Shown: positions 12,758-21,736 of the stretch, piece by piece | Position numbering within the stretch: the stretch's first letter is position 1 | How the letters are laid out: each line of letters starts with the position of its first letter | Source of the DNA: a virus | Strand: one strand, 5' to 3' | IMG/VR virus record: IMGVR_UViG_3300012003_000026 | Coordinates: 1-21,938 of that record | Length of the DNA: 21,938 nt | Position numbers and translations under genes: made by a program | The notes under the pieces: generated by a model | Told to the model about the DNA's origin: nothing | The model's input: only the letters and a program-made list of their open reading frames with translations | Databases searched by the model: none

Positions 12758-14338
12758 GTGGCGATCGCCCATGATGTAACGACCACCGAGGTCGACTGGA
12801 CCGCGACCCCGCATACCGTGTCGCACCCAGCCGGGGCGACGGCTCAGGCCGTCGTCGTGCAGGTCGTCACCGAGATCAATGCGACCAATGCTGAGGTCAC
12901 CGGTATCACCTATGGTGGCGCAGCCTTGTCTATGGTCAAGAGCGCCGGGGACACGACCGAGCCGGGATCGGTGACGGCCTGGTTCCTGGACGGCATTACT
13001 GGAGGCACGCAGAGCGTCGTCATCACCTGCTCTGGGACCACCAAAAAGCGGGCAAGGATCTCGACGGTCACGGTGGCCTCGGGTGCCACCGTTGCGGTAG
13101 CAAACTCTTCGAGCGCAAGTAACGCCAGCATCGCAAACCCCCCGTGTACGATCTCCCCTCTGACCGCTGGTACCCAACTCGAAGCGTTTGGGTGCATCTT
13201 CTCCGGGCTGACCTCGATGACCGCCACCCCGGCGACGGGCTGGACGCTCATCGACTACGCCGACACTGGGGCGCAGGGCTACGGGTTTGAGAGGCGCTCG
13301 GTCGCATCAAGCGGAACCACGCTGAACGCGGGGTGGACTGCGGCCACCGCCGATGACTTCGCGGCTGTGGCAGTGGCGCTCAAAGAGGTCGCCGGGGGTC
13401 CGGTCACTCTGGCCGCATCAGGGACCTGCGACGTCGTAGCCGCAACGTCAGGTGACGCGACACGGGTCCCACTTGTCCTGGCGGCCTCTGGTACTGCCGA
13501 CGCGGTGAGCACTGTCACCGGCAACGCGGCCCGGCTCGGTCAAATCCTGACCGCAATCGGGACCATCGTGGTTATTGCGGCCACCTCCGGCGACGCCACG
13601 CGGGTACCACTTACCCCGGCAGCGTCCGGGACAACCACGATCACGACCGCCGTTTCCGGGGACGCGACACGAGTTCCCCTCACCTTTGCTGCGTCCGGAA
13701 CCATCCCGGTCATAGCCGCCACAAGCGGTAACGCGACCCGGACGCTCCTGACGCTGGCAGCGTCGGGCACTGTCCCCGCGGTTGTGGCGGTCACCGGCAA
13801 CCCAACCCGCGTGCCACTGACACTCTCCGCATCAGGGACCGTACCGGCTGTCACTGGCACCTCTGGCAACCCCACGCGGGCCGGACAGACCCTGACCGTC
13901 ACCGGACAGGTTACCGTCACCTCAACGGCCTCGGGCAACGTGACCCGCGTGGTCCTCGTCATGGCCGCAGCGGGCACCGTCGTCGTCATGACGGCCACCT
14001 CCGGGGCTGCAGCACGCGTGACCCTGACACTGACCGCCACCGGGACCATCCCCATTGTCTCGGCCACATCCGGGGATGTCACACGAGTCCCGATTGTCCT
14101 GGCAGTGTCCGGCACCGTGGACGCCGCCTCGGTCGTGATCGGGGCCGCGATCCGGATCGGCCCATTCCCCCTCGTCACCGACCCAAGACTCACCCTCACC
14201 CTGCCGTCGTCGGCACTGACACTGACCCTGCCCGCGTCTGCTCTCGACATCGACGCGCCCACCTCAGCACTGAGCATTGACGCGCCCACATCACAGCTCG
14301 CCCTCGCACTGCCCGTTTCGAGTTTGGAGCTCACATGA
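12758..14338 (+). CDS. Repeat-rich tail adhesin / fibre shaft protein
   Basis: This 526-residue protein has three parts. Residues 1-213 form a beta-rich domain (ITYGGAALSMVKSAGD, SVTAWFLDGITGGTQSVVI, a late ATGWTLIDYAD and a final FAAVAVALKE strand) like adhesive domains on phage fibres. Residues 214-466 are eleven tandem units of exactly 23 residues (13397-14155), each ending TSG(D/N)ATR or close to it. The last ~51 residues are nine-residue units built around SALxLxxPx (14183-14335). Such repeats suggest an extended shaft. GTG is chosen because GAGGGGAGG (12744-12752) sits five bases ahead. The stop overlaps the next ATG. It is almost free of Lys after the first domain. Receptor unknown. 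Confidence 0.75.
   Translation: MAIAHDVTTTEVDWTATPHTVSHPAGATAQAVVVQVVTEINATNAEVTGITYGGAALSMVKSAGDTTEPGSVTAWFLDGITGGTQSVVITCSGTTKKRARISTVTVASGATVAVANSSSASNASIANPPCTISPLTAGTQLEAFGCIFSGLTSMTATPATGWTLIDYADTGAQGYGFERRSVASSGTTLNAGWTAATADDFAAVAVALKEVAGGPVTLAASGTCDVVAATSGDATRVPLVLAASGTADAVSTVTGNAARLGQILTAIGTIVVIAATSGDATRVPLTPAASGTTTITTAVSGDATRVPLTFAASGTIPVIAATSGNATRTLLTLAASGTVPAVVAVTGNPTRVPLTLSASGTVPAVTGTSGNPTRAGQTLTVTGQVTVTSTASGNVTRVVLVMAAAGTVVVMTATSGAAARVTLTLTATGTIPIVSATSGDVTRVPIVLAVSGTVDAASVVIGAAIRIGPFPLVTDPRLTLTLPSSALTLTLPASALDIDAPTSALSIDAPTSQLALALPVSSLELT
13397..14155 (+). repeat. Eleven tandem 69-bp units (23 codons each)
   Basis: Eleven consecutive in-frame units of exactly 69 bp encode the 23-residue repeats of the adhesin. 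The best conserved positions are an ASGT near residues 7-10 and SG(D/N)xTR at 18-23. At DNA level the copies are clearly diverged, so the array is old and held by protein selection, not a recent expansion. Confidence 0.9.
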
Positions 14339-16999: not shown

Positions 17000-18166
17000 G
17001 TGAGTTCTTACGAACAGCGCCGAAACAAGGGCGGAGACATCTCACACCGCATCCGGTTCCGCTACGCCGGGACCAACCGCGCGGTGCCATTCGAGTCCAC
17101 TGATGCCGCATTGAAGTGGAAGGCGCTGCTGGACGCGGTCGGTCCGGCTAAGGCCCTGGCCGCACTTGAGGATCCCAAGCCGACCAGCCTGCGCACCGTC
17201 TCGGATCAGGTCGCCAACCACATCGCCCACCTGACCGGCGTCACCGATGGCACCCGCGCGCGGTACTCCGACTACCTGCGCCGACGCATCGACGGCCACC
17301 CCATCGGCTCCACTCCCCTACACCTGCTCGACAGGGACACGATCGCGGCCTGGGTGAACTGGCTCGCCAAGGAAGGACTGAGCGCCAAGACGATCAAGAA
17401 CCACCACAGCCTGCTCTCGGCCTCCCTGACATCAGCGGTGCGCGCCGAGTTCATCCCCACCAACCACGCCGAGGGTATCCGGATCGCCACGCCGAACGAA
17501 CAGGGCGAGGAGATGGTCACCCTCACCCTGTTTGAGCTCTGGACGTTCATCAACGCCGCACCGGACCATTGGCGCCCGATGGTCATGTTCCTGTTCGGAA
17601 CCGGCGTCCGTTTCGGTGAGGCGTCCGCGCTTCAGGTCGGCGACATCGACCTCGACGCAGGGCAGGCCCGAATCAGGCGGGCGTGGAAGCACACCAACGG
17701 TCACGGTCACCAGCTGGGTAAACCCAAGTCGAGACGGTCGGTGCGAACCATCGTGTTCGGCCGCGACGTCGGCGCCACCATCGCGCCGCTGATGGCAGGC
17801 AGGCCGGCCGGGGCGTTCCTGTTCACCAACACTCAGGGCGGGCCGGTGCGCCGGACCAACTTCGCCGAACAGGCATGGTTGCCCGCGCTGCACGACTTCG
17901 CCGGCGACACCAAGACAGTGACCCCGACCGCGGGCAGGCACCACGTCGAGTGGACGGACGGCCCGGGCAAGCGACCGACTCCGCATGATGCGCGGCACAC
18001 CTATGCCTCGTTGCAAATCCTGAATGGCGTCTCTGATGCGTTCCTCCAGCGGCAGCTCGGGCATGAGTCGATCACCACGACACTAAATCTGTACACCCAC
18101 CTACGCACCGAGGACTTGCGTGTCCTGGCCGACGTCATCGACGTCCCGCTGGAGTTGGAGTCGTAG
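17000..18166 (+). CDS. int: Tyrosine-type integrase
   Basis: This 388-residue recombinase should catalyse integration at the adjacent attP. The first ~60 residues (RRNKGGDISHRIRFRYAGTN) are a likely arm-site-binding beta domain. Residues about 65-165 form the SAM-like core-binding domain (TARYSDYLRRRI-type helix, WVNWLAKEGLSAKTIKNHHS). The catalytic domain has R204 (TGVRFGEAS), a Lys-rich hairpin (KPKSRRSVR), H329-x-x-R332, H355 (LGHES) and the nucleophile Y365 (NLYTH). All expected residues are present, so it looks active. An in-frame stop at 16991 limits the start; GTG 17000 is the first choice although it lacks a Shine-Dalgarno and lies in a start-associated repeat. Confidence 0.95.
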   Translation: MSSYEQRRNKGGDISHRIRFRYAGTNRAVPFESTDAALKWKALLDAVGPAKALAALEDPKPTSLRTVSDQVANHIAHLTGVTDGTRARYSDYLRRRIDGHPIGSTPLHLLDRDTIAAWVNWLAKEGLSAKTIKNHHSLLSASLTSAVRAEFIPTNHAEGIRIATPNEQGEEMVTLTLFELWTFINAAPDHWRPMVMFLFGTGVRFGEASALQVGDIDLDAGQARIRRAWKHTNGHGHQLGKPKSRRSVRTIVFGRDVGATIAPLMAGRPAGAFLFTNTQGGPVRRTNFAEQAWLPALHDFAGDTKTVTPTAGRHHVEWTDGPGKRPTPHDARHTYASLQILNGVSDAFLQRQLGHESITTTLNLYTHLRTEDLRVLADVIDVPLELES

Positions 18167-18430: not shown

Positions 18431-18790
18431 TCACTCCTCAGACATGTCGTTCCGCTCAGCGATGGATGCAAGGGCCGCGAACATGGCGGCAGCTTTGGCG
18501 GGACGATCAGCCTTGGGTGTGTCGCGCAGAATTATGCCGATGGCATTGCGGACCAACTCGATGTCATCCGTGTAGCCCTCCTGGTCCTGCGCCTTGGCCA
18601 GCGGCTCGATGTCGAGCGCGTCACGGACCTTCCCCATGGTGAGCGCTGCGACGTTCTGCGCTCGGGTGATTCTGGTGACTGTCGTCTGAGAGATCCCCGC
18701 CTCTGTCGCGAGTGTGGTGGCACTCCACGCCTTAGCATCCATCGCAGCCAGGACGATGTCGCGGAACTGCTCCCGCTGTTTGCGGTCCAT
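18431..18790 (-). CDS. HTH immunity repressor (CI-like)
   Basis: This is a 119-residue DNA-binding protein on the minus strand, divergent from the early operon. A helix-turn-helix lies at residues about 23-45 (WSATTLATEAGISQTTVTRI), followed by MGKVRDALDIEP, the usual end of an XRE-type fold. The C-terminal half (about 70-119) is helical and may form dimers. There is no LexA-like peptidase part, so induction by RecA-driven self-cleavage is not expected. GGAGAAGG lies just before the ATG on the minus strand. Orientation and the adjacent operator array make it the likely lysogeny repressor. Confidence 0.8.
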   Translation of the reverse strand: MDRKQREQFRDIVLAAMDAKAWSATTLATEAGISQTTVTRITRAQNVAALTMGKVRDALDIEPLAKAQDQEGYTDDIELVRNAIGIILRDTPKADRPAKAAAMFAALASIAERNDMSEE

Positions 18791-18951: not shown

Positions 18952-19167
18952 ATGCCCACCACAGAATCACCCCACAACATCACAGGGGAGGTGCTGCGAG
19001 GGATGCGCGCCGGAGTTGGTATGACACTGCGATCGATGGCTGACCGCGTCGGCTGCTCTCACCAGCACCTTGCCCGCATCGAGTCCGGTGAACGCGCACT
19101 CACTCCAGCATTGGCCGCCAAGGTCGCACAAGCCATCGCGGACCACCTCAACCGGCGCGCGGCATGA
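18952..19167 (+). CDS. Cro-like XRE-family HTH protein
   Basis: This 71-residue protein is almost entirely one XRE helix-turn-helix domain: VLRGMRAGVGMTLRSMADRV, then GCSHQHLARIESGER (the recognition helix region, about 34-48), then LTPALAAKVAQAIADHL. It is the first gene of the early operon and opposes the repressor, so it is the likely Cro counterpart. There is no Shine-Dalgarno, and the promoter places the transcript start at the ATG, so translation is probably leaderless. The stop overlaps the next gene (ATGA). Confidence 0.82.
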   Translation: MPTTESPHNITGEVLRGMRAGVGMTLRSMADRVGCSHQHLARIESGERALTPALAAKVAQAIADHLNRRAA

Positions 19168-19730: not shown

Positions 19731-20429
19731 ATGACCAGCAAGAAACTCGTAACCCAGACGGTCACCACGACCGTCACCATGAAGGCGAGCCAGTTCCACG
19801 ATCTCGTCGCACCCGTCATGCCATTGGCTGACAAGTCCGGCAACCTGCCCGCACTCGGTGCTGTGCTGATCCAAGCAAACGGTCCATATCTCCTCGCCAC
19901 AGCGACCGACCGTTACCGGGTCGGCATCCAGCGAGTGAGGTTGGACGAGGCAGCCCCCGGTTTTACTGCCCTCATATCCCTGCGGTCGCTCAAGTCAATC
20001 CTGAGCATCTTCAAGGTTTCTCGCTCAGCCGACCCTGACCTGTCCATCACCTCAGCCGAGCACATGCTGACCGTCGATGCAATCGGTGCAATGGACTTGG
20101 ACCCCTACGGCATCGTGTCCGGGCGGATGTCGTGGCCGCTAGTGGCGGGCGACTACCCGAAGGGCATCCACGACATCATCACGGCCTCTAGCACCGCTCA
20201 GCCTGAGGGTCCGCTACTGCTTAATGCAAACCTGTTGGCCGACTTCAAGTTCGCTCAGGTCCAGGGTCACCCGATGGTGATGCGCGGCAGGGTGGAAGGC
20301 GCGACGTTCATCCAGATCGGCCCGGACTTCATCGGCGCGATCATGTCAGTTCGCGCTTCCCTCGCGTCAGAGTTGGACGCCGACTGGACCACCTTCCTCG
20401 CGCCGAGCAAGACGGAGGTCGCGGCATGA
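19731..20429 (+). CDS. Reduced beta-sliding-clamp (DnaN)-like protein
   Basis: This 232-residue protein resembles part of the DNA polymerase III beta clamp. Residues 17-150 read like clamp domain II: LPALGAVLIQ, the signature ATDRYRV (58-64), a strand ISLRSLKSILSIFK (82-95), and W...GDYPK (135-144), matching the FPDY region of DnaN. After a short link, residues 162-208 resemble only the last half of domain III (LLLNANLLADF ... FIGAIMSVR, compare the MPMR end of DnaN). Domain I and the first half of domain III appear missing; normal clamps have about 370-400 residues. The ATG at 19731 has AAAAGAG upstream, and longer in-frame starts overlap the previous gene. It may act in phage replication or bind host clamp partners. 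Domain assignment is by eye. Confidence 0.65.
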   Translation: MTSKKLVTQTVTTTVTMKASQFHDLVAPVMPLADKSGNLPALGAVLIQANGPYLLATATDRYRVGIQRVRLDEAAPGFTALISLRSLKSILSIFKVSRSADPDLSITSAEHMLTVDAIGAMDLDPYGIVSGRMSWPLVAGDYPKGIHDIITASSTAQPEGPLLLNANLLADFKFAQVQGHPMVMRGRVEGATFIQIGPDFIGAIMSVRASLASELDADWTTFLAPSKTEVAA

Positions 20430-20880: not shown

Positions 20881-21251
20881 GAACCCTCGCCCGAGCCGCC
20901 GCCTACACCCTCCTCGCGGCCGTCGTCGCCCTCTCCCTAACCGTCACCATCACCACAGGCATCTTCTGGGCCGTCATCTCCTGCGCCGCCGTCGCATCCC
21001 TGGTCATCCTCACCGTCGAGATCCGCAAAGCGCTGGCGCTGACCTCACCAGAGGCCCTCGACGCGCTCTTTGACGACGACCACACGCAGCAGCAAGTGGA
21101 CCGCTACCACTGCGCAGGACACGGCTGCCAGCTGCGCACCTTCTACAGCGACGAGGGCGGCACGACGTGGGTGTGCGCGAACTGTGAGCGGTCCTACTGG
21201 GTGCCGGTCGCCGACGTGCCCTACGACCGAGAGAAGGACGGTGCCGCATGA
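20877..21251 (+). CDS. Membrane protein with C-terminal zinc-ribbon-like motif
   Basis: This is a 124-residue protein. Two hydrophobic segments (about 9-27 and 29-47) form an N-terminal membrane hairpin. The C-terminal half carries CAGHGC about 20 residues before CANC, a possible zinc ribbon facing the cytoplasm. The GTG start overlaps the preceding stop. In the early operon this could be a membrane-located host-takeover or superinfection-exclusion factor, but nothing in the sequence proves this. Confidence 0.65.
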   Translation: MRTLARAAAYTLLAAVVALSLTVTITTGIFWAVISCAAVASLVILTVEIRKALALTSPEALDALFDDDHTQQQVDRYHCAGHGCQLRTFYSDEGGTTWVCANCERSYWVPVADVPYDREKDGAA

Positions 21252-21736
21252 GCACCGACATCGCCACGACCACCTGCAAGGAATGCGCTGCACCCGTCGG
21301 AGGCCGAAAGGTGTTCTGCGACCCGTGCGTCGTCCTGCGCGCGGCCCGGGCCCAGTGCAGATGGCGCGCCCGCCGCACGCCCGAGGGGATCGCGGCACGG
21401 GCCCAGTACCAGCGTGAACAGTACGCCGCGCGCACGCCCGAGCAGCGGGATGCGCGGGCCCAGCGCGATCGCGAGCGGTGGCTCCAGAGGAAGTACGGGA
21501 TCGGCGTTGACGAGTTTGACGCGCTCCTGGCCGCACAGGACAGCCGATGTGCGATCTGCGGGACCGACGCGCCGAACGGTCATGGCTGGCATGTCGATCA
21601 CGATCACGAGTCCGGTGCGGCTCGCGGGATTCTCTGCCCCACGTGCAATGTCGGCCTCGGCCACTTCAAGGACGACCCTGCGGCCCTGCGCGCCGCAGCC
21701 GCCTACATCGAATCACACGCGAGGAGAACGTCATGA
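21248..21736 (+). CDS. Endonuclease VII-like nuclease
   Basis: This 162-residue protein has an N-terminal pair of CxxC motifs (CKECAAP, CDPC), a basic helical linker with two RTPE(G/Q) repeats, and a C-terminal endonuclease VII-type domain. The catalytic part has C101-x2-C104, the HVDHDH metal/catalytic stretch (115-120), then RGILC-P-T-C133 and N134. Phage T4 endonuclease VII resolves branched DNA; free-standing relatives also act as homing nucleases. Its place next to a recombination exonuclease fits junction processing, while mobility is the other possibility. ATGA overlap with the preceding gene. Confidence 0.88.
   Translation: MSTDIATTTCKECAAPVGGRKVFCDPCVVLRAARAQCRWRARRTPEGIAARAQYQREQYAARTPEQRDARAQRDRERWLQRKYGIGVDEFDALLAAQDSRCAICGTDAPNGHGWHVDHDHESGAARGILCPTCNVGLGHFKDDPAALRAAAAYIESHARRTS

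Follow-up and report, generated by a model that had tools for sequence, protein, structure and literature searches.

Actinophage mini-clamps of one and a half DnaN domains as possible partner-binding modules without a ring

The DNA analyzed here (the window, a viral record of 21,938 bases taken at its full length) comes from a temperate siphovirus, and its genes encode a connector, tail proteins, a tape measure, an endolysin, a tail spike and an integrase. The tyrosine integrase gene (17000..18166, plus strand), which fits a temperate phage, is followed by two divergent genes for HTH proteins, i.e., a probable repressor (18431..18790, minus strand) and a protein in the cro position (18952..19167, plus strand), then by a 67-aa open reading frame and by the gene studied here (19731..20429, plus strand), which we call the mini-clamp gene. 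The repressor-cro-clamp order is common to the window and the phages Horus and Matteo, and, going only by gene order, the mini-clamp would be expressed early in the lytic phase. Elsewhere in the window, positions 12758-14338 encode a protein of 526 aa that has no PHROG match and contains ~30-aa internal repeats (ASGT..V.ATSG.ATRVPL..), and genes of the HNH/endonuclease VII type lie at 445-1155 and 21248-21736; one such gene sits inside the morphogenesis region, between the neck/minor head and the head-tail connector genes.

The mini-clamp gene opens with ATG and encodes 232 aa with no internal stop. Its first part is a complete clamp domain II (residues 12-137; 19764..20141) of two beta-alpha-beta-beta-beta motifs, which pairs in hhalign with residues 125-243 of Escherichia coli DnaN and holds the groove loop ATDRYRV (residues 58-64; 19902..19922), the equivalent of E. 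coli A171-L177. It is followed by the interdomain linker with GDYPK (residues 140-144; 20148..20162), in which P143 is the equivalent of Pro242, by a junction (residues 145-159; 20163..20207) where ~56 aa of DnaN domain III (III-A, E. coli 256-311) are missing and the AlphaFold2 model places a short helix (146-154), and by the half-domain III-B (residues 160-209; 20208..20357), which ends in IMSVR (residues 204-208; 20340-20354; E. coli V361-R365). All these features lie on the plus strand, and the three motifs stand exactly where the original prediction had placed them in the translation.

The likeness of this protein to clamps is more than chance would give, as the profile and structure comparisons below show. 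The Pfam DnaN central domain matches at E 8.6e-4, under Pfam's curated cut-off, PF00712 and PF02768 have no match in the window, the TIGR00663 equivalog score is 15.8 bits against a cut-off of 137.65, and actinobacterial DnaN structures match weakly by sequence. Among phage profiles, phrog_947 (phage DNA polymerase processivity factor) matches over domain II (E 2e-7), and phrog_12598 over nearly the whole chain (residues 12-211 to profile positions 3-211, E 8e-17). A comparison with DnaN profiles, which had been proposed as a check, was made by aligning 26 sequences of the mini-clamp family with 12 DnaNs including that of E. coli; the best alignment (Prob 99.3, E 3e-20) sets window residues 12-209 against residues 125-366 of E. 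coli DnaN and has a single gap of ~56 residues (E. coli ~256-311), namely the first beta-alpha-beta-beta-beta motif of domain III. The same gap appears in the alignment against phage DnaNs, and DnaN domain I pairs with the mini-clamp profile only as a paralogous repeat that takes the place of domain II. Joint alignment of 44 mini-clamps gives an occupancy of E. coli columns of 0.98 for domain II, 0.13 for III-A, 0.85 for III-B and 0.01 for domain I. Host DnaNs, in turn, match the mini-clamp profile over domain II and, short or weak extra pieces aside, do not go beyond position 170 of 225. Thus, the earlier reading of the protein as domain II followed by no more than the C-terminal half of domain III was right, on both the profile-profile alignment and the column occupancy; compared with the three-domain DnaN subunit, domain I and half of domain III are absent. 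The companion claim that about half of the ring is lacking holds as arithmetic, three of the six beta-alpha-beta-beta-beta motifs of a DnaN subunit being left.

The predicted structures agree with this assignment. AlphaFold2 models of the monomer, a further check that had been suggested, were obtained for the window protein (26 alignment rows; pLDDT 81, pTM 0.77) and for a relative from Mycolicibacterium sphagni (pLDDT 86.5, pTM 0.79), and both contain the ten elements of a full clamp domain followed by the helix and three strands of one more motif. In the window model the first motif of domain II is formed by E13-18, H19-26, E44-50, E53-59 and E63-70, and the second by E79-83, H84-95, E103-109, E112-118 and E132-136. 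The PDB matches listed by Foldseek are DnaN, with best E values of 1e-9 (window) and 4e-11 (M. sphagni relative). Hence, judged from these models, the clamp fold is present in the window protein, with one whole domain and one half. Since the rmsd of the superpositions, taken over the full chain, is 4-10 A, the placement of III-B against domain II, and with it the geometry of the groove, is uncertain.

The missing parts are those by which the DnaN ring is closed. The interface residues listed for the DnaN ring (I78, R103, F106, I272, L273, E298 and E304; PMC11139829) all fall, by alignment, in segments absent from the mini-clamp, and the window protein lacks the head-to-tail contact of domain I with III-A, so that, as far as sequence alignment can tell, both sides of the interface are lost. 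In our view it is improbable that the protein is a genuine processivity clamp whose subunits assemble in a new way. Each protomer would then supply 3 of 12 ring motifs, and the III-B halves of two protomers would join about a two-fold axis and so restore a complete domain, which would produce arcs as dimers or a ring as tetramers. This reading draws on the three motifs per protomer in both AlphaFold2 models, on a III-B that would have an open edge for want of its natural partner half, on a gene that is maintained and widespread, and on phage annotators calling it a sliding clamp; moreover, loss of the known interface leaves room for another ring. Against it, every known ring-interface residue is gone, pairing about a two-fold axis would put opposite faces of adjacent protomers on the same side, and the carriers searched gave no match to a phage polymerase III/A or clamp loader.

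The peptide-binding groove of DnaN comprises subsite I (R152, L155, T172, G174, H175, R176, L177, P242, R246, V247, V360 and M362) and subsite II (H175, N320, Y323, V344, M362, P363, M364 and R365; PMC11139829). In the window protein L155, T172, R176, P242, N320, M362 and R365 are retained as L42, T59, R63, P143, N165, M205 and R208, while L177 is replaced by V64, G174 and H175 by R61 and Y62, and P363 by S206; the segment after P143 also differs, the linker of the groove reading YPKGIHD in the window copy versus FPKWRQL in the family. Over 53 relatives, conservation averages 2.47 bits in the groove columns against 1.59 bits in the other core columns (Mann-Whitney p 1e-5), and the equivalents of M362, T172, P363 and G174 rank among the top 7 of 187 columns, while the equivalent of Arg176 is Thr in most members. 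We take the raised conservation, a property of the alignment, as retention, which does not prove binding; the conserved ATDR and F-G-MP may also be structural. The retention of the pocket proposed earlier is therefore borne out only in part: the segments are kept and show raised conservation, but the window linker is divergent and three mini-clamps (L068, L070 and L075) have lost the groove motifs (no ATDR, altered MPxR). Because of these two departures, the role of the groove is possibly not universal.

The protein had been noticed as a single reduced clamp, and it is indeed a clamp relative; it belongs, however, to a family that already has a product name. About 45 distinct relatives share the one-and-a-half-domain architecture, in actinophages (Tortellini, Jace, Horus, Ewald, Bowser, REQ2 and Matteo), viral contigs and actinobacterial prophages, with copies in genomes of Mycolicibacterium, Mycobacterium, Rhodococcus, Gordonia, Kineosporia and Brevibacterium. 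The mini-clamp profile is fully covered in 22 of 301 sampled Mycobacteriaceae genomes, and five of 395 genomes from the wider class carry a mini-clamp (a sixth match is a true DnaN), both samples counting their centre genome, which was picked for carrying the gene. One actinobacterial genome (G082) has three mini-clamp genes (L062, L075 and L076), two of them nearly identical. Searched with the window protein alone, viral contigs gave no relatives; those in viral contigs came from closer pairs and a 5-row alignment, an 8-row alignment being too diverse for the pattern search. In the tree, for which no root was inferred, the 44 mini-clamps form one side of a branch with 100/98 support against all DnaNs tested, which fits a single origin. 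The window copy falls on the mini-clamp side, as a long branch of unsure exact place, with 16-27% identity to its relatives and at best 26% in the tree alignment. Its short length and low identity might suggest a decaying or annotation-truncated dnaN, with the missing halves elsewhere or recently lost; we regard this as very improbable indeed, given the identical deletion in 44 members on one branch and the purifying selection in the Tortellini-like clade (omega 0.12). A split partner or second clamp gene was likewise ruled out, as the carrier phages searched have no domain I or domain III match beyond the mini-clamp.

We also examined what else the carriers encode. In seven complete carrier phages and three viral contigs we found no match to the domain III family PF02768, no domain I match besides the mini-clamp itself, and no match to the Pol III alpha, Pol A or delta-prime families, which were the polymerase and clamp-loader families covered by the search; the seven complete phages encode no second clamp. 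With none of these families matched in the carriers, host clamp-binding proteins are the likely partners. Clamp-binding motifs are not in excess in neighbouring phage proteins (1 seen vs 1.3 expected), and models of anti-phage defence have no match to the window protein. Anti-repressor genes lie near the mini-clamp in Mycolicibacterium and Kineosporia loci, as in prophages.

Genes for RecE-type or other exonucleases occur near the mini-clamp in Tortellini, Matteo, REQ2, Jace and a Kineosporia prophage (L044), and several lineages carry added modules. An FtsK-gamma domain (PF09397) is fused to the C terminus in the Ewald and Kineosporia types (E 1e-18 in L005, 2e-21 in L044), and by sequence similarity this winged helix is also found in L006, L020-L022, L056 and L077. 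Tortellini-like and REQ2 proteins end in Lys/Arg-rich tails (charge +5 and +10), in Horus and Matteo a basic tail lies at the N terminus, and the window and Jace copies have neither an FtsK-gamma domain nor a basic tail. These neighbours and modules would suit a partner of phage RecE/RecT recombination, a landing pad tethered to DNA through which host polymerase or ligase would reach recombination intermediates. We consider such a role unlikely, since the Nyceirae/Ewald types have no annotated RecET nearby and the RecE, RecT and RusA proteins beside mini-clamps lack a clamp-binding motif; the window stops too early to show RecET near its own copy.

Taken together, our results suggest, though they do not prove, that the mini-clamp works on proteins of host replication and does not surround DNA in the manner of an ordinary clamp. 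We give roughly even chances to the view, the likeliest of those considered, that it is an offshoot of bacterial DnaN serving as a non-ring partner-binding module for host clamp-binding proteins. Domain II, the linker and III-B, the three segments that build the groove, are retained according to the alignments and models, and the protein, probably made early in lytic growth, might work as a free module whose groove captures the clamp-binding motifs of host replication and repair proteins such as DnaE1, ImuB/DnaE2, NucS and the clamp-loader delta. The captured proteins would be kept from the host clamp by competition or redirected to phage DNA, and an FtsK-gamma domain or Lys-rich tail could supply the DNA attachment formerly given by the ring. 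For the window copy, which has no such domain or tail, capture or competition is the simpler reading. The earlier interpretation is thereby supported in part, through the clamp fold, the lost ring parts, the retained and conserved groove segments and the want of Pol III alpha and Pol A matches in the carriers searched; the protein may be a recruiter, a decoy or an oligomer of a new kind. Competition is plausible because delta binds monomeric clamp ~50 times tighter than dimer (PMC11139829) and because the phage clamps Adephagia gp35 and Waterfoul gp48, the latter a full-length clamp given its 376 aa, are toxic to M. smegmatis mc2 155 when expressed (PMC11373665, PMC9339283). The fuller proposal, to which we lean somewhat less, is a phage clamp lineage without a ring, in which DnaN has been cut to a groove module that works in trans, on the clamp loader or on the clamp-binding proteins of the host, some branches being held on DNA by FtsK-gamma or a basic tail, or, alternatively, a new ring of composite domains from three-motif protomers. 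The ring is what defines a clamp; in a conserved and widespread phage lineage reduced to the groove half, the two functions of holding partners and enclosing DNA would be separated, and the family would offer a natural tool, or a starting point for inhibitors, directed at the host's clamp-binding proteins in mycobacteria and their relatives.

Some of these proteins already bear names. The family is annotated as "DNA polymerase III sliding clamp", and phage annotators have noted both "sliding clamp" and "FtsK-like" for a single gene; searches of the open-access literature turned up nothing on the half-domain deletion, the single branch or the meaning of the FtsK-gamma fusion. Clamp-like proteins of phrog_12598 and phrog_3007 are also labelled "RusA-like Holliday junction resolvase" in many records (such as NC_041888.1 gp57, NC_005091.2 gp21 and NC_018283.1 gp20). 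We rejected this label, as the Pfam scan shows no RusA family and the predicted structure is a clamp, and the database label is thereby corrected; in Tortellini an annotated RusA lies two genes downstream of the mini-clamp, which may explain it.

Compared with known systems, the window protein shares with DnaN (TIGR00663; PF00712/PF02767/PF02768) the fold of domain II and III-B, the segment order and groove residues, but lacks domain I, III-A and the ring interface (232 vs 366 aa). The monomeric E. coli clamp variant I272A/L273A, to which the tight binding of delta applies, likewise has a groove without a ring, but it is an engineered point mutant that keeps all three domains. PCNA, T4 gp45 and the two-domain clamp of phage Seurat (246 aa) are of similar length and of the same fold superfamily; two-domain clamps, however, have four motifs per protomer, in two complete domains (forming trimeric rings in PCNA and gp45), whereas the AlphaFold2 models of mini-clamps show three motifs, one complete domain plus one. 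The Seurat clamp had resembled the mini-clamps but was set aside, as its domain III looks complete by eye. The window protein's own family is the actinophage "DNA polymerase III sliding clamp" of phrog_12598 (Tortellini gp57, Jace gp60, Horus gp57, Matteo gp40 and REQ2 Orf51), matched over its full length and with the same architecture, from which the window copy differs by its long branch and by having neither basic tail nor FtsK-gamma. The short clamps of phrog_3007 (190-237 aa) from Burkholderia phages (BcepNazgul gp21, AH2 gp20) match the mini-clamp in Foldseek, and their profile overlaps its linker and III-B (L036, E 9e-6); these phages encode their own DNA polymerase, and the clamp architecture was judged by eye. 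Two such phrog_3007 proteins (L082:9682-10395, 237 aa; L083:8499-9128, 209 aa) look, by eye, like one-and-a-half-domain clamps. Possibly, the phrog_3007 clamps of Burkholderia phages represent a second, proteobacterial branch.
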